Shown here: positions 17,516-36,859 of the stretch, in pieces | How the letters are laid out: each line of letters begins with the position of its first letter | Position numbering within the stretch: the first letter of the stretch is position 1 | DNA from: Paraburkholderia sp. ZP32-5 | GTDB taxonomy: Bacteria > Pseudomonadota > Gammaproteobacteria > Burkholderiales > Burkholderiaceae | Direction of reading: 5' to 3' | DNA: 64,000 nucleotides | NCBI RefSeq assembly: GCF_021390495.1 | Contig: NZ_JAJEJP010000001.1 | Location: 4,092,001 to 4,156,000 of the forward strand | Translations under genes and position numbers: made by a program | The notes under the pieces: model-generated | The model's input: the letters and a program-made list of their open reading frames with translations, nothing else | Databases searched by the model: none | Told to the model about the DNA's origin: nothing

Positions 17516-18343
17516 ATGAACCACGCCGTCCACCAGATCTACTACTCGTCGCAAACCCGGGCGATGCTCGACCCCGGCTTCATTCCGCTGGATAACTCCG
17601 GACAACGTCCGGACTGGTATGAATACGGGCCGATCCGCCGCTTTTTGCTGACGCACCCGCTGGCGCCCGATACGCGCTATGGCTTCCTGTCGCCGAAATT
17701 CGCCGAGAAGACCGGCTTGACTTCCGCGCAGGTCAACGCGTTCCTGGACAGCACGCCCGACGACGTGGACGTCGTCACGTTCTCGCCGTATTTCAGCAAC
17801 GCGGCCTTCTTCAAGAATGTGTTCGAGCAGGCGGAGTTCTGGCATCCCGGCATCATGCACACGATCGGCGACGCGATCGCGATGGTCGCGCCGGGCATGA
17901 ATGCGAACACGCTGACGCACGGCATGCTGATGAGTTCGATGCAGACGGTGTACTGCAACTACTTCGTCGCGAAGCCGCGCTTCTGGCGGCGCTGGTTCGA
18001 ACTGTGCGAGGTGATTTTCCGCTGCGCGGAATCGGGCCGCGGCGAGCTGGCGCAGCGGCTCAATGCGCCGACCCAATACGTGCCGCCGACGCCGGCGAAA
18101 ATCTTCGTAATCGAGCGGATCGTTTCGCTGCTGCTGAGCCTGGAGCCGTCGAACTGGAAGGTGCGCAACTACAACCCGATCAAATTGCCGGCGGACAACA
18201 ACCTGCTGAACGGCAAATTCCGCGATGAGATGGTCACGCTGGATGCGTTGAAACAGGCCGCGCTCAGTACCACGTTCCACGACTACTACGTGAAGTACAT
18301 CGACCTGCGAGGCCAGATGATCGAGCGCTTGCAGCAGGCGTAG
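17516..18343 (+). CDS. Uncharacterised protein of the glycosylation island
   Basis: This encodes 275 residues from ATG 17516 (MNHAVHQIYYSSQTRAM). An in-frame upstream ATG adds 30 residues with no obvious role. There is no signal peptide or clear membrane helix. The sequence has motifs rich in aromatic residues (LDNSGQRPDWYEYGPIRRFL; YGFLSPKFAEKTGL; DVVTFSPYFSNAAFFKNVFEQAEFWHPG). The blocks IYYSSQT, DWYEYGPIR and GFLSPKF recur in proteins I recall near bacterial glycosyltransferases, which suggests a sugar-modifying role, but no nucleotide- or metal-binding motif is evident. It lies between a GT2 gene and the second OGT. Function unknown. Confidence 0.6.
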   Translation: MNHAVHQIYYSSQTRAMLDPGFIPLDNSGQRPDWYEYGPIRRFLLTHPLAPDTRYGFLSPKFAEKTGLTSAQVNAFLDSTPDDVDVVTFSPYFSNAAFFKNVFEQAEFWHPGIMHTIGDAIAMVAPGMNANTLTHGMLMSSMQTVYCNYFVAKPRFWRRWFELCEVIFRCAESGRGELAQRLNAPTQYVPPTPAKIFVIERIVSLLLSLEPSNWKVRNYNPIKLPADNNLLNGKFRDEMVTLDALKQAALSTTFHDYYVKYIDLRGQMIERLQQA

Positions 18344-18445
18344 GTCGCCGCTGCTGCCGTTTTTACCGGGCCACGAGCGTGGCCCAGCATCGTTACTCTT
18401 CGCCGCCCGTCGCCGCATTAGCGATGAATGGCGGCGATGCCCGCC

Positions 18446-20272
18446 TCACCCCAGCGCGCTGACCAGCTCGCCAAAGCGCTGCTCCAGATTGCGAACGAAT
18501 TTGGGCGTATCGAACAGCGCGCCGCTTTCCTTCGTCTCGGCCAGTACCGCGCGCAAGCGCTGCCGCTCGTCGGCAGACTGCGCGAGCGCCACGGCCTTCT
18601 CCTCGTAGCTACGCAGATCGGTCGAGATCAGCTCGCTGAGTCCGGCCGCGGTCAACAGCGCACCGGCCATGCGCGCGGCAAACGAGCGGCCGGAGCACGT
18701 GACCAGCGGCAAGCCGGCCCACAACGCGTCGTTGGCCGTGGTGCCGGCATTGAACGGGAACGAATCGAGGAACAGATCGGCGATGCTCATGCGCGCGAGG
18801 AACATCTCCGGCCACGTGCGCGTCGCAAACACCAGACGGCTGCCGTCGATACCACGCGCTTCAGCCTCCTTGCGCAGATTCGCTTCGGCCCAGCGATTGT
18901 CCGACAGCAGCCACAGCACGCTGTCCGGCACGCGCCGCAGAATGTTCATCCATACCTCAAACATTTGCGGCGTGAACTTGTAGTTGTTGTTGAACGAACA
19001 GAACACCAGGCCTTCCGCCGGCAAGCCGAGACTTTCGCGCGTCGGCGCTTCGGCGATCACGCGCTTGCGGTCGCTCACCTGATAGATGTCCGGCATATAC
19101 AGCGGCTTCTCGCTGTAGTACGGCGCGAATTGCGGCGGAATCAGGTATTCGTCGGCGATCACGTAGTCGATGAACGGGAAGCCGGTAGTGGCCGGCAAGC
19201 CCAGATACGTGATCTGCACCGGCGCGGGCCGGGCCGACAGAATGTCGGGACGGGCACCGAAGGTCTGCCCTTGCAGATCGACGAGGATGTCGATTTCCTG
19301 CTCGCGGATCAGGCGCGCCACGTCCGCGTCGCTCATCTGATCGATACGCTGGAAATGGTCCATCGCGGCAATCACGCGCTGGCGCAGCGCCGAACCGTCC
19401 TCGGGCGACCAGCAATAGCCGTACACCTCGAAATGCTCGCGATCGTGCAGCTCGAATAGCTGCACCATCAGCATCGACACCGGATGCAGGCTGAAATCCG
19501 ACGACAGATAGCCGACGCGCAGCTTCTTGTGCCCATAGGCATGTCCGTTCGACAGCGCCGGCAGCGTCAGATTGACCTTGTTGGTGACATAGTGGCGCGC
19601 GGCCACCAGTTGCGCCTCGGGGTCGTCGGACTGCGAAATCATCGCGAGCGCCGAGGTGGACTGGATCATCAACGCGGGGTCGACGTTCGGCGGCACCGCG
19701 TAGACCGGCCATTCGCACATCTTCGCGCGCAGGAACACCCAGTGATGCAGCACGTCGGTCTGGTTCGGATTGACTTCCAGACTCTTGCGCAGCCAGTCGA
19801 GCGCATCGCCGTACTGGCGCTCGTTCTCGAACAGGCGCGCGAGGTTGTTCATCGCCATCAACCGGTGCGCCGCGCCTTCCTGGTCGTGCATCGAGACCGT
19901 GTTGGCGACCCATTGCCATTCGGCCAGCGCGGCCTGCGGCTGCTTCAGACGCTCATACACCAGCCCCAGGTTGAAGTGCGGCTGGACGAACGAAGGAGAC
20001 AGATCGATCGCGCTGCGATACACGCGCTTCGCGTCTTCGAGGCGGCCCATCCGGTCGTAGGCGGCGCCCAGATTGAACAGCGCGAAATGGTTGAACGCCG
20101 TGTTGTTGTGCTCGACCCAGGTCTGATAGAGCACCACCGACAACTCATGCAAGCCCTCGTTCGTCAGCCGGTTGCCGTAGTCGATCAGCTCGGCCAGCGA
20201 CAACGTACCCCGCCACGCGGCCAGGATTCTGCTCGAAAACTCGGATTCAACGAAGGCGATAGATTGGTTCAT
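18446..20272 (-). CDS. Second TPR-domain O-GlcNAc-transferase-like protein (SPINDLY/GT41 type)
   Basis: This 608-residue protein is shorter than the paralogue at 11035. Residues 30-190 hold four or five TPR-like repeats (FALFNLGAAYDRMGRLEDAK; PHFNLGLVYERLKQPQAALAE). The GT41 region starts near residue 250: KLRVGYLSSDFSLHPVSMLM, IDILVDLQGQTFGARPDIL, APVQITYLGLPATTGFPFID, FCSFNNNYKFTPQMF, then LDSFPFNAGTTANDALWAGL and CSGRSFAARMAGALL. It should transfer a sugar from a nucleotide donor to protein Ser/Thr. It lies 62 bp downstream of the octad-repeat genes on the same strand, so those Ser/Thr-rich proteins are its nearest candidate acceptors (inference). Confidence 0.88.
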   Translation of the reverse strand: MNQSIAFVESEFSSRILAAWRGTLSLAELIDYGNRLTNEGLHELSVVLYQTWVEHNNTAFNHFALFNLGAAYDRMGRLEDAKRVYRSAIDLSPSFVQPHFNLGLVYERLKQPQAALAEWQWVANTVSMHDQEGAAHRLMAMNNLARLFENERQYGDALDWLRKSLEVNPNQTDVLHHWVFLRAKMCEWPVYAVPPNVDPALMIQSTSALAMISQSDDPEAQLVAARHYVTNKVNLTLPALSNGHAYGHKKLRVGYLSSDFSLHPVSMLMVQLFELHDREHFEVYGYCWSPEDGSALRQRVIAAMDHFQRIDQMSDADVARLIREQEIDILVDLQGQTFGARPDILSARPAPVQITYLGLPATTGFPFIDYVIADEYLIPPQFAPYYSEKPLYMPDIYQVSDRKRVIAEAPTRESLGLPAEGLVFCSFNNNYKFTPQMFEVWMNILRRVPDSVLWLLSDNRWAEANLRKEAEARGIDGSRLVFATRTWPEMFLARMSIADLFLDSFPFNAGTTANDALWAGLPLVTCSGRSFAARMAGALLTAAGLSELISTDLRSYEEKAVALAQSADERQRLRAVLAETKESGALFDTPKFVRNLEQRFGELVSALG

Positions 20273-20328: not shown

Positions 20329-20334
20329 ATGTGG

Positions 20335-23300
20335 CTAGAGATTCAACGCCTGGATTTGCGCCGAGGTCAGCCCCGTCGTATTCAGGCTCGCCTGCTGCTG
20401 CGAGCTCAATGCGGCTATGTCATCGGTCGAGAATGCCAGGATCTGCGACGAACTCAGTGCGGCCAGTTCGGTCGTCGTCAGAGATTGTATCTGCGTCGAG
20501 CTCAGCGCCTGAATTCCCGACGAACTGATCGCCTGGATCTGCGCGGTGCTCAGCGCCGGAAGCTGCGTCAGCGACAGCCCTTGCATCTGCGACGAGGTCA
20601 GATTCGCTACCTGCGAGGTCTTCAGCGCGGCCAGTTGCGTGAGGCTCAGGTTGCCGATGTCATCGGTCGACAGCGCCTGCACCTGAGTAGACGTCAGCGC
20701 GCCCACCGCGGTCGTGCTCAGCCCTTGCATCTGCGCCGAGGTCAGCGCGGCGATGCCGTTCGAACCGAGCGCCGCGATCTGCGCGGTACTCAGCGACTGA
20801 ATCTGGCTGGTGCTCAACGTCTGCACTTGCGTCGACGACAGATTCGCCAGTTCCGTGTTGCTCAAGCCGCCAAGCTGCGCGGTGCCGAGCGCCGCGATCT
20901 GGTCGGTCGTCAGCGACGACACGCCGTTCGAGCCGAGCGCGGTGATCTGCGCGGTGCTCAGCATCGCGATGCCCGCCGAGCCCAGCGCCTGTACCTGCGT
21001 CGAGGTCAGGTTCGCGACTTGCGAGGTCTTCAGACCCGCCAGCTGCGTACTGCTGAGTTCGCCGATTTCGTCGGTCGTCAGAGCCTGCAACTGGGTCGAC
21101 GTGAATGCGTTCAGCGCCGCGGTGCTCAGGCCGGCGATCTGCGTCGAAGTCAGCGCCACCACGCCGGCCGAACCGAGCGCCACGACCTGCGCGGTCTTCA
21201 GCGCGTTCAACTGGGTCGAGCTCAGGGTCTGGATCTGCGTCGCGCTCAGGCTGGTCAGCTGCGTCGAGCTGAGGCCCGCGATCTGCGTGGTCGTCAACGC
21301 CGCCACGTCATCGGTGCTCAGATACGTGACCTGCGCGGACGTCAGCGCGTTCAGCGCGGCAGTGCCGAGCGACTGGATCTGATCGGTGCTCAGCGCGTTG
21401 ATGCCGTTCGAGCCGAGCGCCACCACCTGGGCGGTCTTCAGCGCGGCCACGTCGGCCGTCGACAACGACTGCACCTGGCTGCTCGTCAGACCGGACATTT
21501 CGTCGGTGGTCAGGTTGGCAACCTGCGTGGTGCTGAGCGCCTGGATCTGGTCGCTGCTGAGCGCGGTAATGCCGCTCGAACCGAGCGCCGCGAGCTGCGT
21601 GTTGCTCAGGATGCTGATGTCGGCCGTGCCGAGCGCGGCGAGCTGGTCGGCGCTCAGCGCGGCGATCTGCGCGGTGCTCAGGCCGGAAACCTGCGAGGTC
21701 GTCAACGCGCCGATCGCATCGGTGCCCAGATACGAGACCTGGGTCGACGTCAGCGCGTTCAGGCTCGCGGTGGACAGCGACTGGATCTGGTCGGTGGTCA
21801 GCGCGGCGGCGCCGTTCGAGCCGAGCGCGACGATCTGCTGGGTCTTCAACGCGGCGATCGCGGCGTTCGACAGCACCTGCACCTGGTCGGTACTCAGCGC
21901 GGACAGCTCGGCGGTGGTCAGGCCGGTCACCTGTGCGGTGCCCAACGCCTGGATTTCGCCGCTCGTCATCGCGGCCACGTTGGCCGAGCCCAGCGCGCCG
22001 ACTTGCGTCGCGCTCAGTGCCGGAATATCGGCGCTCATCGCGACGACCTGAGCCGAGCTGAGGCTCGCGATCTGACGCGTGCCGAGCGCGGCAACCTGGG
22101 TCGTGCTCAGCGCGGCGATCGCGTCGGTGCTCAGCGCCTGCACTTCGCTCGCGGTCAGGCCGTTCAGCGCGGCGGTACCGAGCGACTGCACCTGATCGGT
22201 GGTCAGCGCGGCGGTGCCCGCCGAGCCCAGCGCGACCATCTGCGCAGCGCTCAGCACGCTGATGCCGGTCGTGCCCAACGCGCCGATCTGGTCGCTCGTC
22301 AGCGAGGCGATCTGTTTGGTGCTCAGCGCCTTGATCTGCGAGGTCAGCAATTCGGAGACGCCGGTCGTGCCCAGCGCGCCGATCTGCGACGAACTCATCG
22401 CGTTCAACTGGCTGGCGCTCAACGTCGTCACCTGGGTCGAGCTCAGCGCGCCCACGCCGGCCGAGCCGAGCGCGATCACTTGCGCGGTGTTCAGCTTCTG
22501 CACGTCGGCAGTGGACAGCGCGCCGACCTGATCGGTCGTCAGGCTGGAAATCTGCGCGGTGTTCAGACCGGAAATCTGATTGGTCTTCAACGCGGCGATA
22601 TCGTCGGTCGACAGCGTCTGAAGCTGCGCGGTCGTCAACGAATTGAGCGTCGCCGCGCTCAGGCCTTGTACTTCGCTGCTGGTCAACGCGGCGATGCCCT
22701 TCGTGCCCAGCGCCGCGACTTGCGCGGTCTTCAGCGCGGCGACATCGGCGGTCGTCAGCGCCTGCAACTGGTCGGTCGTCATCGCCGACAATTCGGCCGC
22801 GTTCAGGCCGGCGATCTGGTTGGTCTTCAGCGCCTCGATCTGGTCGGTCGTCAGCTTGGCGACGTTCGCCGCGCCGAGCGCGCCGATCTGCGCGGTGTTC
22901 AGACTCTGGATGCCGGCGCTGCCCAGCGCCACGGCTTGCGAGGTCGTCAGATGCGAGACCTGCGCGGTGGCGAGACCCGCGATCTGCTTCGCGGTCAGCG
23001 CGGCGATATCGTCGCTCGACAACGTCTGCAACTGCGTCGAGCTCATCGCGTTCAGGCTCGCGGTGTTCAGCGCGCGGACTTGCGTCGACGACATCGCGGC
23101 GATGCCGGCCGTGCCCAGCGCACCCATCTGCGCGGTCTTCAGCGCGGCGACGTCGGTGGTCGACAATGCCTGGATTTGCGTCGTGCTCAGGTTGGCGACG
23201 CTCGCCGTGCTCAAGCCGGCGATCTGGTTCGTCTTCAGCGCCTGCACCTGATCGCTGCTCAGGTTGGACAGGGCCGATGCACTCAGCGCGTTCAGTTGCG

Positions 23301-24930
23301 CGGTGCTCAGCGCCTGGACATCCGAGGTGCTCAGCGCCGCGGCTTGCGACGAGTTCAGATAGCTGACGTGAGCGGTGTTCAGACTCGCGATCTGTTTGGT
23401 GCCCAGCGCGGCGATGTCATCCGTCGACAGCATCTGCATCTGCGACGAGCTCAGCGCGTTCAGCGTCGCGGTGCCCAGCGACTGCACTTGCGCCGACGTC
23501 AACGCGGCGACATCCAGCCCGGCCACCTGCGCGGTTTTCAGTACCGCGAGATCGCTGTTGAGCAGCGACTGGATCTGCGTCGTCGACAGATTCACCAGCT
23601 GCGACGTGGTCAAGCCGACGATCTGGCTGGTCTTCAGCGCCTGCAGCTGATCGGTGCTCAGATTCGCGACGGCCGCCGTGTTCAGCGCGCCGATCTGCGC
23701 GGCGCTCAGCAATTGCAGGCCGCCGGTGCCGAGCGCCTGGACCTGCGCGGAGGTCAGATTCGCAATGTGCGCGGTATTGAGGCTCGCGATCTGCACGGTC
23801 CGCAGCGCCGCGACGTCAGCGGTCGAGAACGCCTGCAACTGTGCCGCGCCCAGCGCGTTCAGCTGCGTCGCGGTGAACGCCTGCGCCTGGCTCGACGTGA
23901 ACGCCGCGATGCTGGTCGTGCTCAGCGCCGCGATCTGCGCGGTCTTCAACACGGCAAGCGCCGCCGTCGACAGCGCCTGGATCTGCGTCGTGCTCAGGTT
24001 AGCCAGTTGCGCGGTACTCAAGCCGGAGATCTGGCGAGTCAGCAGCGCCTGGATTTGCGTGGTGCTCAGGTTGGCGACGCTCGCCGTGCTCAACGAGCCG
24101 AGTTGCGCGGCGCTGAGCGTATCGAGGTCGGACGTGTTGAGCGCCTGCACCTGAGTCGAAGTCAGGTGCGAGAGCTGCGCGGTCGCAAGGTTCAACACCT
24201 GCGCGGTGCGCAGCACCGAAATATCGGTGGTCGACAGCGCTTGCAGCTGCGCGGTGCCGAGCGCGTTCAGCTGCGCGGCGGTCAGCGCCTGCACTTGCGC
24301 GGTCGTCAGCGCGGCCACTTGCGCGGTGCCGAGCGCGGAGATCTGCGCGGTGTTCAATGCGGCGATATAGGCAGTCGACAGCGCCTGCACCTCGGCCGTG
24401 CCGAGGTTGGACATGACGGCCTTCAGGCCTGCGATCTGCGATGTTTTCAGTGCCTGCAGCTGGTCCGTGGTCAGCGCGTTCACGCCGGCCGAACCCAGTG
24501 CGGCCAATTGCGCGGTGCTCAGCACCGCGACGCCCGTCGCGCCCAACGCCTGGATCTGCGTGGACGTGAGGTTCTGGATCTGTGTCGTGCCGAGACCCTT
24601 CAACTGCGCGGTGCCCAACGCAGCGATGTCGGCATAAGACAGGCTTTGAAACGACGCGCTGTTCAACGCATTCAATTGCGAGGTTTTCAGCGCCTGGACT
24701 TCAGCGGTCGAAAAACCGCTCAACTGCTCGGAGCTGAGCAAGGCCATTGCCGCGGTGCTCAGTGTCACGACCGACGATGGCGCGAGCGCGCCGAGCTGGT
24801 TGCTGCTCAGAAGCACGACATCCGCCGTGGTCAGAGCCGCCACGTCGGCGGTCGACATCTGCGCAAACTGCGTGGTCGTCATGACGCTGACTTGAGCAGC
24901 GGTGAGCGATGAAATGATCGATGAAGTCAT
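20335..24930 (-). CDS. Giant octapeptide-repeat protein B (1531 aa)
   Basis: The protein is about 190 consecutive eight-residue units of the form L-[S/T/G/K]-[T/S]-x-[Q/D/G/E]-[I/V/L]-x-[A/G/S/N], e.g. LSTAQIAA, LTSTQVQA, LGSNGIAA, LSTDDIAA. The N terminus (MTSSIISSLTAAQVSVMTTT) aligns without gaps after residue 4 to that of its larger neighbour, so the pair are paralogues. It ends LTSAQIQALNL. I see no signal peptide, lipobox, transmembrane segment, RTX nonapeptide, Cys or Trp; Ser/Thr fill about a third of positions. The octads here have drifted, with little 56-residue order left. The ATG has only a weak GAAG upstream. I do not recognise a named family. A fibrous or solenoid surface or secreted protein, possibly O-glycosylated by the OGT gene just downstream, is inference. 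Confidence 0.75.
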   Translation of the reverse strand: MTSSIISSLTAAQVSVMTTTQFAQMSTADVAALTTADVVLLSSNQLGALAPSSVVTLSTAAMALLSSEQLSGFSTAEVQALKTSQLNALNSASFQSLSYADIAALGTAQLKGLGTTQIQNLTSTQIQALGATGVAVLSTAQLAALGSAGVNALTTDQLQALKTSQIAGLKAVMSNLGTAEVQALSTAYIAALNTAQISALGTAQVAALTTAQVQALTAAQLNALGTAQLQALSTTDISVLRTAQVLNLATAQLSHLTSTQVQALNTSDLDTLSAAQLGSLSTASVANLSTTQIQALLTRQISGLSTAQLANLSTTQIQALSTAALAVLKTAQIAALSTTSIAAFTSSQAQAFTATQLNALGAAQLQAFSTADVAALRTVQIASLNTAHIANLTSAQVQALGTGGLQLLSAAQIGALNTAAVANLSTDQLQALKTSQIVGLTTSQLVNLSTTQIQSLLNSDLAVLKTAQVAGLDVAALTSAQVQSLGTATLNALSSSQMQMLSTDDIAALGTKQIASLNTAHVSYLNSSQAAALSTSDVQALSTAQLNALSASALSNLSSDQVQALKTNQIAGLSTASVANLSTTQIQALSTTDVAALKTAQMGALGTAGIAAMSSTQVRALNTASLNAMSSTQLQTLSSDDIAALTAKQIAGLATAQVSHLTTSQAVALGSAGIQSLNTAQIGALGAANVAKLTTDQIEALKTNQIAGLNAAELSAMTTDQLQALTTADVAALKTAQVAALGTKGIAALTSSEVQGLSAATLNSLTTAQLQTLSTDDIAALKTNQISGLNTAQISSLTTDQVGALSTADVQKLNTAQVIALGSAGVGALSSTQVTTLSASQLNAMSSSQIGALGTTGVSELLTSQIKALSTKQIASLTSDQIGALGTTGISVLSAAQMVALGSAGTAALTTDQVQSLGTAALNGLTASEVQALSTDAIAALSTTQVAALGTRQIASLSSAQVVAMSADIPALSATQVGALGSANVAAMTSGEIQALGTAQVTGLTTAELSALSTDQVQVLSNAAIAALKTQQIVALGSNGAAALTTDQIQSLSTASLNALTSTQVSYLGTDAIGALTTSQVSGLSTAQIAALSADQLAALGTADISILSNTQLAALGSSGITALSSDQIQALSTTQVANLTTDEMSGLTSSQVQSLSTADVAALKTAQVVALGSNGINALSTDQIQSLGTAALNALTSAQVTYLSTDDVAALTTTQIAGLSSTQLTSLSATQIQTLSSTQLNALKTAQVVALGSAGVVALTSTQIAGLSTAALNAFTSTQLQALTTDEIGELSSTQLAGLKTSQVANLTSTQVQALGSAGIAMLSTAQITALGSNGVSSLTTDQIAALGTAQLGGLSNTELANLSSTQVQTLSTSQIQSLSTAQIAALGSNGIAALTSAQMQGLSTTAVGALTSTQVQALSTDDIGNLSLTQLAALKTSQVANLTSSQMQGLSLTQLPALSTAQIQAISSSGIQALSSTQIQSLTTTELAALSSSQILAFSTDDIAALSSQQQASLNTTGLTSAQIQALNL

Positions 24931-24963
24931 AGTTTGAAGGCTTCGCTAGTCACCAGATAACTT

Positions 24964-25016
24964 CGCCCCGGCGCGCCAGACGAGTATTGCTACGCTCGTC
25001 TGGCGACACCGGGGCG
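24964..25016 (-). terminator. Long GC-rich hairpin between the two octad genes
   Basis: CGCCCCGG (24964-24971) and GCCAGACGAG (24975-24984) pair with CTCGTCTGGC (24995-25004) and CCGGGGCG (25009-25016), leaving a 10-nt loop and a small internal bulge. It occupies most of the 103-bp gap after gene A. No T run follows on either strand. Confidence 0.6.
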
Positions 25017-25033
25017 ATCACTGCTTGGAACGC

Positions 25034-28000
25034 TTAGGCGATGTTCAGGTACTTGATGTCATCGGTACCCAGCGCATTGAGCTGAGCCGACGTCAACGAA
25101 TTAACCTGAGCGGTCGTCAGAGCCGACAGCTGATCCGTGGTCAGGGACGTGAACTGCGTCGTGCTCAGACCCGCCACCTGGCTGGTCTTCAACTCAGCAA
25201 TACCCGTCGTGCCCAGGGCCTGCAGGTTCGTCGTGCCGAGACCGTTCAACTGCGCGGTCGTCAGCGCGGCGATGTCAGCCGTCGAGGTCGCCAACTGCGC
25301 GATCTGATCGGTCGACAGAGCCTGCAGCGTCGCGGTGCTCAGACCGGCCACCTGGTTCGTCTTCAGCACCGAGACACCAGCGGTGCCGAGGGCTACCAGG
25401 TTGGTCGTGCCGAGGCCCGCCAGCTGCGCGGTCGTCAGCGCACCCATGTCAGCCGTCGACGATGCCAGCTGCGCGACCTGGTCGGTCGTCAGAGCCTGCA
25501 GCGCGGCGGTGTTCAGGCCGGCGATCTGGCTCGTCTTCAGCTCCGAGATACCGGTCGTGCCGAGGGCTTGCAGGTTCGTCGTACCGAGACCGTTCAGCTG
25601 CGCGGTCGTCAGCGCGCCCACATCGTTCGCGTTCAACGCGCCGATCTGGTCGGTCGACAGGCCTTGCAGGCTAGCCGTGTTCAGACCCGCTGCCTGACCC
25701 GTCGTCAGTGCCGCGATACCGGTCGTGCCGAGAGCCTGCAGGTTGGTCGTGCCCAGACCGTTCAGCTGTGCCGTGGTCAGTGCGCCAACATCCGTCGTGC
25801 TCAGAGCGCCGATCTGGTCAGTGCTCAGACCTTGCAGCGCTGCCGTGCTCAGACCCGCGACCTGTGCCGTCGTCAGAGCCGAGACGCCGGTCGTGCCGAG
25901 AGCTTGCAGGTTCGCCGAACCCAGCGCGTTCAGTTGCGCCGTCGTCAGGCTGGCGACTTCCGTCGTGCTCAGCGCGGCGAGGTTCGTCGTGCCCAGACCC
26001 GCCAGTTGCGCGGTCGTCAGAGCCCGCACGCCTGCCGTACCCAGCGCGCCGATCTGATCCGTCGTCAGGCCTTGCAGGCTGGCCGTGCTCAGGCCCGCCA
26101 CCTGGTTCGTCTTCAGCTCGGAGATACCGGTCGTGCCGAGGGCTTGCAGGTTGGTCGTACCGAGACCGTTCAGCTGTGCCGTCGTCAGCGCAGCCACGTC
26201 AGCCGAACCCAGCGAGCCGATCTGATCGGTCGTCAGGTTCTGCAGCGTTGCCGTGCTCAGACCCGCCACCTGGTTCGTCTTCAGAGCCGACACACCGGTC
26301 GTGCCCAGAGCTTGCAGGTTGGTCGTGCCGAGGCCGTTCAGCTGTGCCGTGGTCAGCGCGCCGACATCCGTCGTGCTGAGCGAACCGATCTGATCGGTGG
26401 TCAGGCCTTGCAGGCTAGCCGTGTTCAGGCCAGCGACCTGTGCCGTCGTCAGTGCCGAGACGCCCGTCGTACCCAGTGCTTGCAGGTTCGTCGTGCCGAG
26501 GCCGTTCAGCTGTGCCGTCGTCAGTGCCGCGACGTCCGTCGTGCTCAGTGCGCCGATCTGGTCGGTGCTCAGACCTTGCAGCGCCGCGGTGTTCAGACCC
26601 GCGACCTGGCTCGTCGTCAGCGCCGAGATGCCGGTCGTGCCCAGAGCTTGCAGGTTCGCCGAACCCAGCGCGTTCAGTTGCGCCGTCGTCAGGCTGGCGA
26701 CTTCATCCGTCGTCAGCGCGGCGAGGTTCGTCGTGCCCAGACCCGCCAGTTGCGCGGTCGTCAGGGCGCGGACGTCAGCCGAGCCCAGCGCGCCGATCTG
26801 GTCGGTCGTCAGGCTTTGCAGGCTGGCCGTGTTCAGACCCGTCACCTGGCTCGTCTTCAGCTCGGAGATACCGGTCGTGCCGAGGGCTTGCAGGTTCGTC
26901 GTGCCAAGGCCGTTCAGCTGTGCCGTCGTCAACGCACCCACGTCAGCCGAGTTCAGCGCGCCGATCTGATCCGTCGTCAGGCCTTGCAGGCTTGCCGTGT
27001 TCAGGCCAGCGACCTGGCTCGTCTTCAGCTCGGAGATACCGGTCGTGCCGAGAGCTTGCAGGTTCGTCGTGTTCAGGCCGTTCAGCTGTGCCGTCGTCAA
27101 CGCGCCTACGTCGGTCGAGCTCAACGCGCCGATCTGGTCGGTCGTCAGGCCCTGCAGCGTGGCGGTGCTCAGACCCGCGACCTGTGCCGTCGTCAGTGCC
27201 GCGACACCCGTCGTGCCCAGAGCTTGCAGGTTCGTCGTGCCCAGACCGTTCAGCTGCGCCGTGGTCAGTGCGGCGACGTCCGTCGTGCTCAGTGCGCCGA
27301 CCTGGTCGGTGCTCAGACCTTGCAGGCTAGCCGTGCTCAGACCCGCGACCTGTGCCGTCGTCAGTGCCGAGACGCCGGTCGTGCCGAGAGCTTGCAGGTT
27401 CGCCGAACCCAGCGCGTTCAACTGCGCGGTCGTCAGGCTGGCGACTTCCGTCGTCGTCAGCGCGGCGAGGTTCGTCGTACCCAGACCTGCCAGTTGCGCG
27501 GTCGTCAGGGCGCGGACGTCAGCCGATCCCAACGCGCCGATCTGGTCGGTCGTCAGTGCTTGCAGGCTAGCCGTGTTCAGGCCAGAGACCTGGTTCGTCT
27601 TCAGCTCCGAGATACCGGTCGTGCCGAGGGCTTGCAGGTTCGTCGTGCCGAGGCCGTTCAGCTGTGCCGTCGTCAGTGCGCCGACGTCGCCCGAGTTCAG
27701 CGCGCCGATCTGGTCGGTCGTCAGGCCTTGCAGCGTAGCCGTGCTCAGGCCAGCGACCTGCGCCGTCTTCAGTGCCGAGACGCCGGCCGTGCCGAGGGCT
27801 TGCAGGTTGGTCGTGCCGAGGCCGTTCAGCTGTGCCGTCGTCAGTGCGCCGACGTCGGTCGTGCTCAGTGCGCCGATCTGGTCAGTCGACAGGCCTTGCA
27901 GGCTTGCCGTGCTCAGACCCGCGACCTGTGCAGTCGTCAGTGCCGAGACGCCCGACGTGCCCAGAGCTTGCAGGTTGGTCGTGCCCAGACCGTTCAGCTG

Positions 28001-31000
28001 TGCCGTGGTCAGTGCGGCGACGTCCGTCGTGCTCAGTGCGCCGATCTGGTCAGTCGACAGGCCTTGCAGGCTTGCCGTGCTCAGACCTGCGACCTGTGCC
28101 GTCGTCAGAGCCGAGATACCGGTCGTGCCGAGCGCTTGCAGGTTGGCCGAGCCGAGCGAGTTCAGCTGCGCGGTCGTCAGGCTGGACACTTCGGTCGTCG
28201 TCAGTGCGGCGAGGTTCGTCGTGCCGAGGCCGGCCAGTTGCGCCGTCGTCAGTGCACGCACGTCCGCGCTGCTCAGCGAATCGATCTGGTCAGTCGTCAG
28301 GCCCTGCAGCGTCGCCGTGTTCAGGCCAGCGACCTGGTTCGTCTTCAGCTCCGAGATACCTGCCGTGCCGAGCGCTTGCAGGTTCGTCGTGCCGAGGCCG
28401 TTCAACTGTGCCGTCGTCAACGCGCCGATGTCGGCCGTCGAGGTCGCCAGTTGCGCGATCTGGTCGGTCGTCAGTGCTTGCAGCGTCGTCGTGTTCAGGC
28501 CGGCGAGCTGGCCCGTCTTCAGTTCCGAGATGCCGGTCGTGCCGAGCGCTTGCAGGTTGGTCGTGCCGAGGCCGTTCAGCTGTGCCGTCGTCAGTGCGCC
28601 AACGTCGTTCGAGTTCAGCGCGCCGACCTGGTCGGTCGTCAACGCTTGCAGGCTAGCCGTGTTCAGGCCGGCCGTCTGAGCCGTCGTCAGAGCCGATACG
28701 CCGGTCGTGCCCAGAGCTTGCAGGTTCGTCGTGCCCAGACCGTTCAGCTGTGCCGTGGTCAGTGCGGCGACGTCCGTCGTGCTCAGTGCGCCGATCTGGT
28801 CGGTCGACAGGCCTTGCAGCGCGGCCGTGTTCAGACCTGCCACCTGTGCCGTCGTCAGTGCCGACACGCCGGCCGTGCCCAGAGCTTGCAGGTTGGTCGT
28901 GCCGAGGCCATTCAGTTGAGCGGTCGTCAGTGCTGCGACATCCGTCGTGCTCAGTGCGCCGATCTGGTCGGTCGACAGGCCTTGCAGGCTTGCCGTGCTC
29001 AGACCTGCGACCTGTGCCGTCGTCAGTGCCGAGATACCGGTCGTGCCGAGCGCTTGCAGGTTGGCCGAGCCGAGCGAGTTCAGCTGCGCGGTCGTCAGTG
29101 CGGCGACTTCCGTCGTCGTCAGCGACGACAGGTTCGTCGTGCCCAGACCAGCCAGTTGAGCGGTCGTCAGGGCGCGGACATCAGCCGTGCTCAACGAATC
29201 GATCTGGTCGGTCGTCAGGCCTTGCAGCGTCGCGGTGTTCAGGCCGGCGATCTGGTTCGTCTTCAGTTCCGAGATACCGGTCGTGCCGAGCGCTTGCAGG
29301 TTCGTCGTGCCGAGGCCGTTCAACTGTGCCGTCGTCAGTGCGCCAACGTCGCCCGAGTTCAGCGCGCCGATCTGGTCGGTCGTCAGGCCTTGCAGCGTAG
29401 CCGTGCTCAGGCCAGCGACCTGTGCCGTCTTCAGTGCCGAGACACCAGCCGTGCCGAGTGCTTGCAGGTTCGTCGTGCCGAGGCCGTTCAGCTGTGCCGT
29501 CGTCAGTGCGCCGACGTCGGTCGTGCTCAGTGCGCCGACCTGGTCGGTCGACAGGCCTTGCAGGCTAGCCGTGCTCAGACCCGCGACCTGTGCCGTCGTC
29601 AGTGCCGATACGCCGGCCGTGCCGAGTGCTTGCAGGTTGGTCGTGCCGAGGCCGTTCAGTTGCGCGGTCGTCAGTGCGGCGACATCCGTCGTGCTCAGTG
29701 CGCCGATCTGGTCGGTCGACAGGCCTTGCAGGCTTGCCGTGCTCAGACCTGCCACTTGAGCCGTCGTCAGTGCCGAGATACCGGTCGTGCCGAGCGCTTG
29801 CAGGTTGGCCGAACCGAGCGAGTTCAGTTGCGCGGTCGTCAGCGCGGCGACTTCCGTCGTTGTCAGCGACGACAGGTTCGTCGTGCCGAGGCCAGCCAGT
29901 TGAGCGGTCGTCAGTGCACGCACATCAGCGGTGCCCAGCGAATCGATCTGGTCGGTCGTCAGGCCTTGCAGCGTGGCCGTGCTCAGACCCGCGACCTGGT
30001 TCGTCTTCAGCTCGGAGATACCTGCGGTGCCGAGCGCTTGCAGGTTGGTCGTGCCGAGGCCGTTCAGCTGCGCGGTCGTCAACGAGGCGATGTCGACCGT
30101 CGACGTTGCCAGTTGCGCGATCTGGTCAGTCGTCAGGCCTTGCAGCGTGGCCGTGTTCAGACCGGCGATCTGGTTCGTCTTCAGTTCGGAGACGCCCGTC
30201 GTGCCGAGTGCTTGCAGGTTGGTCGTGCCGAGGCCGTTCAGTTGCGCCGTCGTCAGTGCGCCGACATCGGTCGAGCTCAGTGCGCCGATCTGGTCGGTGC
30301 TCAGGCCTTGCAGGCTAGCCGTGTTCAGGCCGGCCGTCTGTGCCGTCGTCAGTGCCGACACGCCGGTCGTGCCGAGCGCTTGCAGGTTGGTCGTGCCGAG
30401 GCCGTTCAGCTGTGCGGTCGTCAGTGCGGCGACGTCGAGCGTGCTCAGTGCGCCGATCTGGTCGGTGCTCAGGCCTTGCAGCGCGGCCGTGTTCAGACCC
30501 GCAACTTGTGCCGTCGTCAGCGCCGACACGCCGGTCGTGCCGAGTGCGCGCAGGTTGGTCGTGCCGAGGCCGTTCAGTTGCGCCGTGGTCAGCGCGTCGA
30601 CGTCGGTCGTGCTCAGTGCGCCGATCTGGTCGGTGCTCAGGCCTTGCAGGCTAGCCGTGCTCAGACCCGCGACCTGTGCCGTCGTCAGTGCCGACACGCC
30701 GGCCGTGCCGAGGGCTTGCAGGTTCGCCGAACCCAGCGCGTTCAGCTGCGCGGTCGTCAGCGCGGCGACTTCCGTCGTCGTCAGCGACGACAGGTTGGTC
30801 GTGCCGAGGCCCGCCAATTGGGCGCTCGTCAGCGCGCGCACGTCAGCCGTGCTCAGCGAGCCGATTTGATCCGTCGTCAGGCCTTGCAGCGTGGCCGTGT
30901 TCAGGCCGGCGACCTGGTTCGTCTTCAGTGCCGAGATGCCGGTCGTGCCGAGCGCTTGCAGGTTCGTCGTGCCGAGACCGTTCAGTTGCGCGGTCGTCAG

Positions 31001-32329
31001 CGCGGCGACGTCGAGCGTGCTCAGTGCGCCGATCTGGTCGGTGCTCAGGCCTTGCAGCGCGGCCGTGTTCAGACCCGCGACCTGTGCCGTCGTCAGCGCC
31101 GACACGCCGGTCGTGCCGAGGGCGCGCAGGTTGGTCGTGCCGAGGCCGTTCAGTTGTGCCGTCGTCAGTGCGGCGACATCGGTCGTGCTCAGCGCGCCGA
31201 TCTGGTCGGTCGACAGGCCTTGCAGGCTGGCCGTGCTCAGGCCAGCGACCTGTGCCGTCGTCAGCGCGGCGACGCCCGCCGTGCCGAGCGCTTGCAGGTT
31301 AGCCGAGCCCAGTGCGTTCAGTTGCGCGGTGGTCAGCGCGGCGACTTCCGTCGTCGTCAGTGACGACAGGTTGGTCGTGCCCAGACCAGCCAGTTGCGCG
31401 GTCGTCAGGGCGCGTACGTCGGCGGTGCCCAGCGAGTCGATCTGGTCGGTCGTCAGGGCCTGCAGCGTGGCCGTATTCAGACCCGAGACCTGGTTCGTCT
31501 TCAGTGCCGACACGCCGGCCGTGCCGAGTGCTTGCAGGTTGGTCGTGCCGAGGCCGTTCAGTTGCGCCGTCGTCAGCGCGCCGATGTCGCCGGTCGAGGC
31601 TGCGAGCTGGGCGATCTGGTCGGTCGTCAGGCCTTGCAGGCTGGCCGTGTTCAGGCCCGCCACCTGGTTCGTCTTCAGTTCGGAGATACCGAGCGTGCCG
31701 AGCGCCTGCAGGTTCGCGGTGCCCATGCCGTTCAGCTGCGCGGTCGTCAGCGCGGCGACGTCGCCCGAATTCATCGCGCCGACCTGGTCGGTCGACAGGC
31801 CTTGCAGGCTCGCCGTATTCAGGCCAGCCACCTGAGCCGTCGTCAGCGACGACACGCCCGAGGTGCCGAGTGCCTGCAGGCTGCTGGTGTTCAAGCCGTT
31901 CAGTTGCGCGGTCGTCAGTGCCTGGACGTCCGATTGCAGCGCCCCGAGCGCTTGCAGGTTCGTCGTGCCGAGGTTGTTCAGTTGCGCCGTGGTCAGAACC
32001 TTGAGCTGGACCGTTTGCAGGATCCCGATCTGGTTCGTGGTCAGGCCGACCAGCGCAGAGGTGCCGAGTGCGGCAACCTGCGAGGTCGACAGGTCCTTGA
32101 TCTGGGTCGTCGACAAGCCCCCCAGCTGAGCGCTGGACAGCGCCGCAATAGCCGCGGCGCTGAGGTTGACGACGTAGGAGGCGTTGATCGCCGAGAGCTG
32201 GTCGGTTGAAAGCTGCTGGATGTCCGCGGTAGTCAGTGCCGCAATGTCGGCGCTGCCTAGCTGCTGGAACTGCGTCGTGGACATTGCCGCGACTTTGTCC
32301 GGACTCATCAGCGAGATGATAGATGTCAT
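25034..32329 (-). CDS. Giant octapeptide-repeat protein A (2431 aa)
   Basis: The whole protein is about 304 octads with the same consensus as its neighbour. After roughly 140 less regular N-terminal residues, sets of seven octads form a 56-residue super-repeat whose octad cores read AQL, TNL, TGV/TGI, AQV, ASL/ATL, DQI and TDV/ADV. Eight copies of a three-octad insert (cores AQL, TNL, TEV, preceded by VRA) punctuate these into blocks of about 190-250 residues, and four units carry a two-residue expansion (LA.ST.DI). The N terminus is MTSIISLMSPDKVAAMSTTQ and the end is DDIKYLNIA. No signal peptide, Cys, Trp or membrane segment is seen. Near-identity of many units implies recent expansion or gene conversion. 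No characterised family is recognised. The 560-bp region upstream should hold the promoter for this gene, protein B and possibly the OGT. Confidence 0.78.
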   Translation of the reverse strand: MTSIISLMSPDKVAAMSTTQFQQLGSADIAALTTADIQQLSTDQLSAINASYVVNLSAAAIAALSSAQLGGLSTTQIKDLSTSQVAALGTSALVGLTTNQIGILQTVQLKVLTTAQLNNLGTTNLQALGALQSDVQALTTAQLNGLNTSSLQALGTSGVSSLTTAQVAGLNTASLQGLSTDQVGAMNSGDVAALTTAQLNGMGTANLQALGTLGISELKTNQVAGLNTASLQGLTTDQIAQLAASTGDIGALTTAQLNGLGTTNLQALGTAGVSALKTNQVSGLNTATLQALTTDQIDSLGTADVRALTTAQLAGLGTTNLSSLTTTEVAALTTAQLNALGSANLQALGTAGVAALTTAQVAGLSTASLQGLSTDQIGALSTTDVAALTTAQLNGLGTTNLRALGTTGVSALTTAQVAGLNTAALQGLSTDQIGALSTLDVAALTTAQLNGLGTTNLQALGTTGISALKTNQVAGLNTATLQGLTTDQIGSLSTADVRALTSAQLAGLGTTNLSSLTTTEVAALTTAQLNALGSANLQALGTAGVSALTTAQVAGLSTASLQGLSTDQIGALSTTDVDALTTAQLNGLGTTNLRALGTTGVSALTTAQVAGLNTAALQGLSTDQIGALSTLDVAALTTAQLNGLGTTNLQALGTTGVSALTTAQTAGLNTASLQGLSTDQIGALSSTDVGALTTAQLNGLGTTNLQALGTTGVSELKTNQIAGLNTATLQGLTTDQIAQLATSTVDIASLTTAQLNGLGTTNLQALGTAGISELKTNQVAGLSTATLQGLTTDQIDSLGTADVRALTTAQLAGLGTTNLSSLTTTEVAALTTAQLNSLGSANLQALGTTGISALTTAQVAGLSTASLQGLSTDQIGALSTTDVAALTTAQLNGLGTTNLQALGTAGVSALTTAQVAGLSTASLQGLSTDQVGALSTTDVGALTTAQLNGLGTTNLQALGTAGVSALKTAQVAGLSTATLQGLTTDQIGALNSGDVGALTTAQLNGLGTTNLQALGTTGISELKTNQIAGLNTATLQGLTTDQIDSLSTADVRALTTAQLAGLGTTNLSSLTTTEVAALTTAQLNSLGSANLQALGTTGISALTTAQVAGLSTASLQGLSTDQIGALSTTDVAALTTAQLNGLGTTNLQALGTAGVSALTTAQVAGLNTAALQGLSTDQIGALSTTDVAALTTAQLNGLGTTNLQALGTTGVSALTTAQTAGLNTASLQALTTDQVGALNSNDVGALTTAQLNGLGTTNLQALGTTGISELKTGQLAGLNTTTLQALTTDQIAQLATSTADIGALTTAQLNGLGTTNLQALGTAGISELKTNQVAGLNTATLQGLTTDQIDSLSSADVRALTTAQLAGLGTTNLAALTTTEVSSLTTAQLNSLGSANLQALGTTGISALTTAQVAGLSTASLQGLSTDQIGALSTTDVAALTTAQLNGLGTTNLQALGTSGVSALTTAQVAGLSTASLQGLSTDQIGALSTTDVGALTTAQLNGLGTTNLQALGTAGVSALKTAQVAGLSTATLQGLTTDQIGALNSGDVGALTTAQLNGLGTTNLQALGTTGISELKTNQVSGLNTASLQALTTDQIGALGSADVRALTTAQLAGLGTTNLAALTTTEVASLTTAQLNALGSANLQALGTTGVSALTTAQVAGLSTASLQGLSTDQVGALSTTDVAALTTAQLNGLGTTNLQALGTTGVAALTTAQVAGLSTATLQGLTTDQIGALSSTDVGALTTAQLNGLNTTNLQALGTTGISELKTSQVAGLNTASLQGLTTDQIGALNSADVGALTTAQLNGLGTTNLQALGTTGISELKTSQVTGLNTASLQSLTTDQIGALGSADVRALTTAQLAGLGTTNLAALTTDEVASLTTAQLNALGSANLQALGTTGISALTTSQVAGLNTAALQGLSTDQIGALSTTDVAALTTAQLNGLGTTNLQALGTTGVSALTTAQVAGLNTASLQGLTTDQIGSLSTTDVGALTTAQLNGLGTTNLQALGTTGVSALKTNQVAGLSTATLQNLTTDQIGSLGSADVAALTTAQLNGLGTTNLQALGTTGISELKTNQVAGLSTASLQGLTTDQIGALGTAGVRALTTAQLAGLGTTNLAALSTTEVASLTTAQLNALGSANLQALGTTGVSALTTAQVAGLSTAALQGLSTDQIGALSTTDVGALTTAQLNGLGTTNLQALGTTGIAALTTGQAAGLNTASLQGLSTDQIGALNANDVGALTTAQLNGLGTTNLQALGTTGISELKTSQIAGLNTAALQALTTDQVAQLASSTADMGALTTAQLAGLGTTNLVALGTAGVSVLKTNQVAGLSTATLQALSTDQIAQLATSTADIAALTTAQLNGLGTTNLQALGTTGIAELKTSQVAGLSTTQFTSLTTDQLSALTTAQVNSLTSAQLNALGTDDIKYLNIA
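25190..31990 (-). repeat. Nested tandem repeat array: 24 bp, 168 bp and about 576-bp-plus orders
   Basis: At DNA level the octads form 24-bp units and the 56-residue sets form 168-bp units that recur in tandem with high nucleotide similarity. Punctuating 72-bp inserts (three octads) define a third order: one insert plus three 168-bp units is 576 bp, and some blocks hold four. The array boundaries are approximate because the ends are degenerate. Confidence 0.85.
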
Positions 32330-32892
32330 GACTTTTTAATCTTCAAATTTTGATCACCGGCCACCGCAGATCTCTTCCCGCCGCGCCATCACGCGAAAGA
32401 TCGTGGCCAACATGCGAGAAACGTCCTCGCCCGCAGTGCTACCCGTAGTGCTATCAATCCGTTTCCAGCCAGTACCGGAAGGTGCTAACCCGAACGCTTC
32501 GACGCCTGGTTCCTTCTCTGAACCCATGCATTGGTGATATCGGCGGCGTTTACGAAACCTTTAGAGATGTCCGGTAAGGAAAAATGGCCGGCGTGAAAAG
32601 CCGTCGTGAAGTGACCCAGGCGGCGCCGGCCGGGCGTCGCCAATCGGCCGGAAAGCCGCACCAGGCCTGGAGTTTGACGTGGTGATGTCAAGTCACCGCG
32701 AATTCATCGTCGCAGTTGCGGCACTGCCGCACGACCGTTCGGCGATCGGGTGACAGCTATATGAAAAAGGTAATTTCTGCCGAACCGCCGAAGCGGCTCA
32801 AATCGCGCCGCGCGCGGCCGATATACAGGCCGGGTGCCTTGCCGCATGGCGGGGGGCGCCGTTAAAGTGCTCATTTCCAACACGGAGCGAAG
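32330..32892. other. Divergent intergenic region upstream of the octad genes
   Basis: These 563 bp separate the minus-strand octad gene A from the plus-strand GT2 gene and are less GC-rich than the flanks near 32330-32360. They must contain both promoters. A TTGACA hexamer occurs on the minus strand near 32690, but no matching -10 box follows at 16-18 bp. Short open frames here look random. Confidence 0.4.
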
Positions 32893-34690: not shown

Positions 34691-36859
34691 TTACCCGCGC
34701 GCGCGATGCTTCTTCGTCGACGCCGCCTTCTTTGACTTCTGTCCCTTGGCTTTGGGCAACGCCGGCGCCGGCACCGGCGCGCTTTCCGGCACCGCCGCGC
34801 TTTCCGCCGCCGGCTTCGCGCGCGCCACAATCCACTGCGCGAGATGCACCGACACACTCGCCAATACCTGCGCCCAGTCGCCCGCGCGGGCCTGACGGAA
34901 CAGCGTCAGATTCGGATACCACGGACTGTCCACACGCTCGTCGAGCCAGACCCATTCGGCGTCGAAGCGGCTCAGCAGCCAGACCGGCGTGCCGAGCGCG
35001 CCGGCAAGATGCGCAATCGCGGAATCGACGGTGATCACCAGGTCCAGGTTGGCTATCAGCGCGGCCGTGTCGGCGAGGTCGTTCAGTTCGCTCGACCAGT
35101 CGATCAACGCGGGCACCGGCGTTTCCAGCCCCTGGCGCAACGTGAAGTAGTTCGCGCCCGGCAGCGCGGGCAACGTCAGCATCTGCTCGACCGTCACCGA
35201 GCGGCGCAGATCCCGCCAGTGTTTCGGATGGTCGTCCCAGTACAGGCCGACGCGCAATCCGGTGTGCGGCTCCAGACGTTCGCGCCAGCGGGCCACATCG
35301 GCCGCGTCGATATGCACATAAGGCACATCGGCCGGAATGCGCGACAGCGTCGTGCGGAACGCGCCGATCAGGTTATGCATCGGCACGCGGGCGTCAACCG
35401 TCGCGGGCAGTTGCCCGATGCCGACCACTTCATCTACACCGTCGATACCTCGCAGCACCCGCGCGAGTTCATCCGGGCATTCGAGAATCACGCGCGCGCC
35501 CTGCTCGTTGAGCAATTTCGCGTAGCGTGCGAATTGCAGCGTGTCGCCGGCACCGCCGTCGGCGGTCAACACGATCGTGCGTCCATCCTGGCGAATCGGC
35601 TCACCGGCCGCATCGGTGAACAGGCCGGTCTGCTCGCGCAACTCCGGTGCATGCGCATGCCAGACCCAGCGGATTTCGCTCGCGCCGCTCTCATAGTCGC
35701 CCTTCTTCCACAACAGACGACCCCGGAGAATATGTGCCTCGATGTGCTCAGGGTTCAGCACCAACGCATGCGACAGATAGGCAAGCGCGTCATCGATACG
35801 ATTAGCGGCCTGGCAGTATTTGCCGAGCAGGCAATAGACCTGGTCCTGCGTCGAGAACAGCGCCGCCTTGCTTTCCAGCAGCGAGATCGCCGCATCCAGT
35901 TCGTCCAGCACCACATAGACATCGCACAGCGCCGACACGACCCGCGAGTCGTCGGGCAGCACCTGCAGCGCGCGCTCGTACATGTCCTTCGCTTCGCCGA
36001 AGCGACCGCTTTCGGCCAGCAGCATCGCCAGGTTCTGCAGCGTGCCCGGATCGTCCTGCTTGATCGACAGCGCTTGCCGCAGCAGACGTTCGCGCTTCTC
36101 GCTCGATAGCAGCAACGCGAGATTGTTCAACGCGGGCAGATGTTCGGGCTGATGCTGCAGCACCGCCTTGTAACCTTCGAGCGCTTCGTCGGTTTGGCCA
36201 GCCTGATGATGAATCGTGGCGAGCGCGAACGTGGCCTCGACGCTATCCACGGCGCTCCCGGCCTCTGCCGCGCGCTCGCGCTTTCGCAACACCAGTTCGA
36301 TTGCCGATTCGGCGAGACCGTACGACGACTGATCGAAACGCGCCTCGCCCTGCTTGAACGCGGCATCCAGCTTTTCGATCTTCAGCACTTCGACTTCGTC
36401 CTGAAAATGCATCGACAGCTTCAACAGGCTGATCGAACGCGGCGACCAGCTTGCCGGCTTATGGATCGTGAACGACCACTTGTGGTCAGTATTGAACGTC
36501 GACGGCCAGACGCCCTGCTCGTACAGGTCTTCGTCGGGCGCGGTGATGATCAGATGGCCGCCCGGTTTGCAGATGCGAATCCAGTTGCCGAGTGCCTGCA
36601 GCGGATCGTCCATCCGCGCCAGATAGTGGCTCGCGTGCACGAAGTCGTACGTGTCGTCCGCGACGCTTCCCATCAACATCGCGTCGCCATCGGACTGCTG
36701 CCAGTTGCGCAGCGACTTCACCAGCGGAAAGAAAGAGGACAAGCTCGACAACGATCCGGGTTCCGTACTGATATCGATGCCGTCACCCGACAGCCAACGC
36801 GTAAAGAAGCGTTGGTCGTTGCCACGACGAAGCATTTGCTTGGCTATTTCGTTCGCCAT
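34691..36859 (-). CDS. Fusion: methyltransferase-like, TPR and GT9 (heptosyltransferase-like) domains
   Basis: This is a 722-residue cytosolic protein. Residues 1-185 resemble a SAM methyltransferase (GDGIDIS in the motif I position, DTYDFVHASHYLARMDDP, ICKPGGHLIITAPDEDLYEQ). Residues 200-400 are TPR repeats (ATIHHQAGQTDEALEGYKAV; AESGRFGEAKDMYERALQVL). From about residue 420 the sequence matches the heptosyltransferase-like GT9 fold (IVLTADGGAGDTLQFARYA; VPYVHIDAADVARWRERL; VITVDSAIAHLAGALGTPVW). The last 50 residues are a Lys/Ala/Pro-rich tail ending KKAASTKKHRARG. Such fusions occur in flagellin-glycan loci. The start ATG at 36859 has AGGCACC upstream. The specific sugar is unknown. Confidence 0.83.
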   Translation of the reverse strand: MANEIAKQMLRRGNDQRFFTRWLSGDGIDISTEPGSLSSLSSFFPLVKSLRNWQQSDGDAMLMGSVADDTYDFVHASHYLARMDDPLQALGNWIRICKPGGHLIITAPDEDLYEQGVWPSTFNTDHKWSFTIHKPASWSPRSISLLKLSMHFQDEVEVLKIEKLDAAFKQGEARFDQSSYGLAESAIELVLRKRERAAEAGSAVDSVEATFALATIHHQAGQTDEALEGYKAVLQHQPEHLPALNNLALLLSSEKRERLLRQALSIKQDDPGTLQNLAMLLAESGRFGEAKDMYERALQVLPDDSRVVSALCDVYVVLDELDAAISLLESKAALFSTQDQVYCLLGKYCQAANRIDDALAYLSHALVLNPEHIEAHILRGRLLWKKGDYESGASEIRWVWHAHAPELREQTGLFTDAAGEPIRQDGRTIVLTADGGAGDTLQFARYAKLLNEQGARVILECPDELARVLRGIDGVDEVVGIGQLPATVDARVPMHNLIGAFRTTLSRIPADVPYVHIDAADVARWRERLEPHTGLRVGLYWDDHPKHWRDLRRSVTVEQMLTLPALPGANYFTLRQGLETPVPALIDWSSELNDLADTAALIANLDLVITVDSAIAHLAGALGTPVWLLSRFDAEWVWLDERVDSPWYPNLTLFRQARAGDWAQVLASVSVHLAQWIVARAKPAAESAAVPESAPVPAPALPKAKGQKSKKAASTKKHRARG

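Follow-up and report, generated by a model that had tools for sequence, protein, structure and literature searches.

Two adjacent genes on the minus strand of Paraburkholderia sp. ZP32-5 encode giant proteins of the ALTTAQ repeat family, ALT1 and ALT2; a gene for a GT41-type glycosyltransferase (GT41b) follows them and a sequence resembling a flagellar sigma28 (FliA) promoter precedes them. The pairing of such arrays with GT41 enzymes and the flagellar-type promoter are the new observations of this work; the preliminary description had tied neither the glycosyltransferase nor the promoter nor the nearby flagellin gene to the repeats. Both observations are backed by two sets of loci, and the promoter is absent in alphaproteobacteria. 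We propose, with the case for and against evenly balanced in our judgement, that ALT1 and ALT2 are giant glycoproteins of the flagellar regulon, that is, helical rods that would be transcribed by FliA, glycosylated by GT41b and exported as a coat. This would give a family of giant repeat proteins, so far lacking any described function, a definite position in the late flagellar regulon and beside a dedicated cytoplasmic glycosyltransferase.

Two repeat proteins under purifying selection

Within the window (the whole 64,000-nucleotide stretch that was analysed), ALT1 occupies 20335..24930 (−) and ALT2 occupies 25034..32329 (−), and their open frames of 1531 and 2431 residues are as the preliminary description had read them. 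Profile segmentation places 98.2% of ALT1 residues in 188 octads and 99.1% of ALT2 residues in 301, together about 490 eight-residue repeats, with the last octad ending at residue 1528 of 1531 in ALT1 and at residue 2427 of 2431 in ALT2. The repeat had been described as about 190 and 304 uninterrupted octads; its existence and extent hold up, and "uninterrupted" is slightly too strong, as the segmentation has four register breaks in ALT1 and six in ALT2. Because shuffled versions of ALT1 and ALT2 still hold a mean of 119 and 193 weak octads, respectively (20 shuffles each), the octad count alone is no proof of repetition. The proof lies in self-match, which at a lag of 8 residues is 0.32 in ALT1 and 0.36 in ALT2, and at a lag of 56 residues 0.36 and 0.61, versus 0.12–0.13 expected. 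The lag of 56 in ALT2 is a higher-order period of seven octads, which appears in its DNA as a 168-nt period.

The composition of the two chains is also distinctive. Ser and Thr account for 27.2% of the residues of each protein (~1080 of 3962 in both chains), and at least one Ser or Thr stands at octad positions 2–3 in 182 of the 188 octads of ALT1 and 298 of the 301 of ALT2. Neither protein contains any Cys or Trp (0% in both) and RTX repeats are missing from their Pfam matches up to E 10, both as anticipated; the N terminus that the two proteins had been said to share is real and is conserved within the genus. No signal peptide or membrane segment was seen on reading the two sequences, and flagellar axial protein domains (flagellin, FlgE, FlgK, FliD) are likewise missing from the Pfam matches up to E 10.

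The initial view that no characterised family has this consensus was wrong in name and close in substance. ALT1 and ALT2 match Pfam PF20080 (ALTTAQ repeat), which describes the consensus, with 946 and 1526.7 bits at a curated cut-off of 26.4 (E 2.3e-293 and 0; 62 and 90 significant stretches); PF20080 is a model of the repeat only. A search of 5.39 million openly available papers, with subscription papers and preprints outside its scope, found no functional work on PF20080 or the ALTTAQ repeat, and we saw no description there of a GT41 pairing or a promoter of ALTTAQ arrays. Other sequence matches were set aside, by judgement, as products of leucine spacing or composition: those to leucine-rich repeat and Toll-like receptor entries of the PDB (E 3.6e-5 and worse) and those to Pfam LRR_EndoS, CAAP1, Phage_TAC_7 and DUF4351, some of which were over the cut-off.

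Comparison with the orthologues in genome G011 gave dN/dS values of 0.36 for ALT1 and 0.32 for ALT2; their antisense frames gave 0.76 and 0.95, so both genes are selected as minus-strand proteins and are under purifying selection. Long open frames do lie opposite the arrays, at 20329-24912 (+) with 1527 codons and at 25025-31363 (+) with 2112 codons; their in-register dN/dS suggests that they are shadows of the repeat's codon usage.

In two models, one of ALT1 and one of a piece of ALT2, AlphaFold2 confidently predicts (pLDDT values of 90.4 and 93.7) a solenoid of short helices with about one helix per octad. The two models agree with the short-helix solenoid that had been guessed from the sequence, and the predicted shape of ALT1 and ALT2 is a long rod made of such helices. 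Those of the ALT1 model span octad positions 3 to 7; the residue preceding the helix is Ser or Thr in 16 of 29 cases, and position N3 is Gln, Asp or Glu in 22 of 29. This comes close to the N-cap pattern, though not in every repeat as first claimed. The best Foldseek match of both models is mesothelin (E 1.6e-4 and 1.5e-4), with query-normalised TM-scores of 0.21–0.37 among the rows with E up to 0.001. Mesothelin too arranges short helices in a superhelix, a resemblance of arrangement only; it is a human surface protein, unlike ALT1 and ALT2. Past such mesothelin- and armadillo-like arrangements, neither Foldseek nor VIA-align returned a clear fold family.

The GT41 partner of the arrays

GT41b lies at 18446..20272 (−), 62 bp downstream of ALT1, and combines N-terminal TPR families with a match of 291 bits to PF13844 (Glyco_transf_41), the domain content of a GT41/OGT-type enzyme. 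Its dN/dS against the G011 orthologue is 0.15. Within the genus, 15 of 144 genomes, our own included, carry PF20080 at E 1e-6; G023, with a 28% match that is not PF20080 at this threshold, was left out. In all 15, the next downstream gene on the same strand encodes a GT41 enzyme (four assemblies, G133, G132, G077 and G145, split the array over contigs, and there the GT41 gene comes after the 3' part of the array). Close copies of GT41b itself (62–100% identity, >850 bits) occur in 10 of the 144 genomes, all of them PF20080-positive (Fisher p 4e-12). The next best match to GT41b in the genus scores 355 bits, and in 103 of the 144 genomes no GT41 reaches E 1e-60. A different GT41, 37–46% identical to GT41b, stands beside the array in G138, G145, G114, G090 and G116.

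Outside the genus, we examined 75 loci with the N-terminal profile, taken from the best 80 matches of a scan. The C end of the array was cut in 17 of these, and 20 of the other 58 had less than 2.5 kb of sequence on one or both sides. Among these best 80 matches, and as raw counts, a GT41 gene lies within 5 kb of 18 of 21 arrays whose repeat runs to the C terminus (with at least 2.5 kb on both sides) and within 1 kb of 15 of 21; three of the 21 have none within 5 kb. For arrays with a C-terminal tail, the corresponding counts among the best 80 matches are 6 and 5 of 17 informative loci. GT41 is the commonest Pfam family beside the pure-repeat arrays, with 14 of 105 neighbours scanned, and accounts for 3 of the 68 that were scanned beside tailed arrays. 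The 105 were taken from 118 listed neighbours and the 68 from 74. Four loci (L134, L087, L093 and L097) dropped out of these lists, and from the 118 we omitted, as redundant or short, one short L140 frame and every neighbour of L112 and L128; only L112 proved to be a near-copy. The second set of loci, drawn from the order, has 10 arrays with the C end in view: a GT41 lies at most 1 kb away from five of them, and at ~3 and ~7 kb from two more.

The relationships among the enzymes point the same way. In a GT41 tree of 73 rows, to which distant GT41s were admitted only if they lay at most 1.5 kb from an array and had at least 400 residues, 31 array-adjacent GT41s fall in one group that holds none of the genus's 13 non-adjacent GT41s. 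Members of this group come from alpha-, beta- and gammaproteobacteria, plus one bin labelled Bacteroidota. Another 12 GT41s form two more groups with array-adjacent members only; one row of the tree, L070_1690_4059, is a misassigned distant protein. The Bacteroidota case (L090) is a 3-kb contig, assigned to an Emticicia bin, that carries an array and a GT41; the enzyme groups with one from Limnohabitans, which suggests a binning error or transfer. Elsewhere, an ALTTAQ open frame with a GT41 downstream (L174 and L175, in G323) is reported at 9542 residues. Draft contigs end inside the arrays at L060/L061, L062/L072, L063/L064 and L057/L059, which makes the array lengths at such loci unreliable and means that some arrays may escape notice.

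Flagellar surroundings and a sigma28-like promoter

The window also holds the flagellin gene fliC (6817..8307, +) and the gene for the flagellar cap FliD (8466..10304, +), and the gene for FliA itself, the flagellar sigma factor, lies ~26 kb before the window. Adjoining FliD is GT41a (10984..13899, +), a second TPR and OGT-like glycosyltransferase that is possibly the flagellin enzyme. It is followed in the flagellin region, at 13978-16300, by a gene that joins a methyltransferase and a CDP-glycerol:polyglycerophosphate transferase domain in one protein, and then by a cytidylyltransferase gene; the two may hint at glycerol-phosphate on a flagellar glycan. On the minus strand, the order is ALT2, ALT1, GT41b, a gene that matches no Pfam or NCBIfam family but recurs, as relatives, at several loci in the genus (17423..18418, −), and a GT2 glycosyltransferase (16430..17245, −). 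Two further GT2 glycosyltransferases, both conserved in G011, diverge from ALT2 (32893-33696 and 33787-34605, +). Beyond them lie a methyltransferase, TPR and GT9-like protein (34691..36859, −; conserved in G011 and G053), a protein with a sub-threshold sulfotransferase match (36968..38875, −; conserved in G011, with a partial match in G050) and another methyltransferase gene. Farther off, the window encodes an Imm52-family immunity protein (52696-53421, +) and a 2447-residue protein with GH2 domains, three F5/8 type C stretches, Ig domains, a TTTGGG-type linker and a C-end GH64 beta-1,3-glucanase (55329-62672, +). FliC was present in the examined stretches of 12 of the 15 PF20080-positive genus genomes, the exceptions being G138, G145 and G050.

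A sigma28-like sequence, TAAAGGTT-N11-GCCGATAT, lies upstream of ALT2 at 32537..32563 (−), its −10 element lying 215 bp before the start codon; the flagellin gene has a counterpart, TCAAGTTT-N11-GCCGACAT, at 6696..6722 (+). In a first test, we scored 12 bases of a FliA consensus of the TAAA/GCCGATAA type upstream of the arrays; PMC2859248 prints this consensus as TAAAGTTT-n11-GCCGATAA. All 12 bases matched in G138, G145 and G053, the first two of which have a full site though no FliC in the examined stretches; ALT2 matched at 11 of 12, and the best sites of the others were weaker. At a threshold of 10 of 12, in the loci outside the genus, sites were found at 9/35 betaproteobacterial arrays versus 1/196 control genes, 0/3 versus 1/11 in gammaproteobacteria, 0/21 versus 3/146 in alphaproteobacteria and 1/3 versus 1/6 in other groups.

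For a more independent measure, a sigma28 matrix was built only from 12 flagellin gene promoters of the genus, to avoid fitting it to the arrays, and its threshold was set at the 99th percentile (12.9) of 359 control genes. The matrix passes 10 of 14 genus arrays (G050 has no start in view), which were compared with the betaproteobacterial controls, as well as 15/35 betaproteobacterial arrays (controls 2/196), 3/3 gammaproteobacterial (0/11), 2/3 other (0/6) and 0/21 alphaproteobacterial (2/146). Applied with the same threshold to the second set, it passes 8 of 15 arrays versus 2 of 117 controls (p 1.4e-7), L176 with a printed score of 12.9 being counted as a miss. This second set comes from 15 other genomes out of 399 searched in the order, with no locus 90% alike to the earlier ones; four of its arrays had no start in view, L180 (G394) held no array by our rule, and one G510 stretch was left out.

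The arrays below the matrix threshold number 4 of 14 in the genus (G133, G132, G077 and G083), 20 of 35 in the betaproteobacteria, 1 of 3 in the other groups and 7 of 15 in the second set. The promoter test covered the 75 loci except 13 without a usable start, and distant starts were set by rule, at the last Met preceding the first octad; wrong starts may therefore account for some of these misses. With many arrays below the threshold and none of the 21 alphaproteobacterial arrays above it, the flagellar link is not universal. Alphaproteobacteria largely do without FliA, which would fit the failure of their arrays. The ALT2 site scores 19.1 against the threshold of 12.9, a FliA-type promoter as far as its bases can tell, and only two sites in the window score at least 13, one upstream of FliC and the other upstream of ALT2. 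Since shuffled windows yield a mean of 0.85 sites of that score per 64 kb, the ALT2 site alone would prove little. Based on the sites of the arrays as well, we propose that a FliA (sigma28) promoter likely drives ALT2 and ALT1 at the time when the late flagellar genes are transcribed.

A proposed pathway, its alternatives and known systems

Our proposal is that FliA would switch on ALT2, ALT1 and GT41b late in flagellar assembly. GT41b is then likely to O-glycosylate ALT1 and ALT2 in the cytoplasm, at the Ser and Thr residues of octad positions 2 and 3. Export would follow, probably by the flagellar type III apparatus; the secretion of non-flagellar proteins by flagella is the subject of a review (PMC8306008). 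The chains would leave unfolded and may regain their fold outside, as a glycosylated rod or coat; the result would be a layer of glycoprotein that sits on the flagellum or the cell or surrounds it. A fusion of an ALTTAQ array to FlgE_D2 and FlgD_ig domains (P0007) was given no weight as proof of flagellar export. It is the sole ALTTAQ case among 58 proteins with its flagellar part and lies on one 8-kb contig, so it may be an assembly chimera.

The export step is where the proposal meets its main rival. Among the best 80 matches, at least 60 residues follow the last octad in 32 of the 58 arrays with the C end in view; many of these tails carry DxDGDG-like motifs, which are typical of type I-secreted proteins, and three relatives (P0005, P0009 and P0014) carry RTX (PF00353) domains. 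Because such tailed relatives look like type I cargo, the arrays could instead be stalks of giant surface adhesins secreted by the type I route, merely timed with motility, glycosylated by GT41 in the cytoplasm and exported by an ABC exporter encoded elsewhere in the genome. We consider this possible but rather doubtful for ALT1 and ALT2, which have neither an RTX match nor a C-terminal tail past the octads. The neighbours of the arrays also speak against it: ABC_membrane and HlyD_3 (2/105 each) and ABC_tran (4/105) are rare beside pure-repeat arrays, none of the three is among the 25 listed families (of 60) for the 68 neighbours of tailed arrays, and no dedicated exporter recurs among the 105 and 68 neighbours.

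In a different division of labour, flagellin would be the substrate of GT41b, and the array would stay in the cytoplasm for good, as a scaffold, a chaperone or a sink for sugars. This would account for the lack of a signal peptide on reading, for the nearby FliC and glycosyltransferase genes and for the sigma28-like promoter sequence. We regard it as unlikely, since close copies of GT41b are confined, among the 144 genomes of the genus, to array-bearing ones, the pair of array and GT41 is not beside FliC in G138 and G145, and another GT41, GT41a, is already placed beside FliD. It is highly improbable, finally, that the ALT frames arose as artefacts of repeat expansion and yield no working product. 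Their low-complexity, GC-rich repeats and long antisense frames would suit such an origin, but the gap in dN/dS between the genes (0.32–0.36) and the antisense frames (0.76–0.95), frames intact over 2431 codons, the conserved N terminus, the partner gene and the promoter sequence all argue for functional proteins.

If the flagellar reading of ALT1 and ALT2 is right, it may extend beyond this locus. We suggest, tentatively and with less conviction, that ALTTAQ proteins and their GT41 enzymes could be an unrecognised late component of the flagella of many beta- and gammaproteobacteria, in which kilo-residue glycosylated rods of short helices would pass through the flagellum and form a sugar sheath round the filament or the cell, a kind of coat distinct from flagellins, RTX adhesins and capsules. 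The flagellar apparatus would then handle very long cargo, with the ~1080 Ser and Thr residues of two chains.

The nearest enzymatic parallel is FlmG, a soluble TPR and glycosyltransferase protein that glycosylates flagellins in the cytoplasm of Caulobacter, as described in PMC7591256. Like GT41b, FlmG joins TPRs to a glycosyltransferase, and it is a soluble cytoplasmic enzyme of a flagellar pathway. In the same account, its substrate is flagellin and its sugar is pseudaminic acid, whereas GT41b is paired with giant predicted solenoids that have no flagellin domain. The pair HMW1C and HMW1 resembles GT41b and its ALT proteins in another respect, namely that a GT41-type enzyme serves its own giant exported substrate, export being our proposal in the case of ALT. 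However, HMW1C-like enzymes glycosylate asparagine and HMW1 leaves by two-partner secretion, and GT41b is nearer to human OGT (E 3.8e-91) than to the HMW1C-like 3q3e (E 3.8e-6).

For the rods themselves, the closest likeness is to HeliScrew4 (PDB 9zem), the top match of a PDB sequence search with ALT1 (E 9.3e-14), ALT2 (E 8.9e-12) and the folded piece of ALT2 (E 3.7e-12). We found no paper on HeliScrew in the open literature, and the accessible part of a paper on designed solenoids (PMC12775518) mentions neither 9ZEM nor a screw; from its name, HeliScrew4 reads like a designed protein. It is a chain of 120 residues, unlike the giant ALT1 and ALT2, and it is built from octads of the same kind (ALTPEQIAALS...), a likeness known from sequence alone; the rows listed from the structure searches with the two models do not include 9zem, which their library may lack. 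If the predicted fold is right, the ALT rods would be the natural equivalent of the octad screw in the HeliScrew4 entry.
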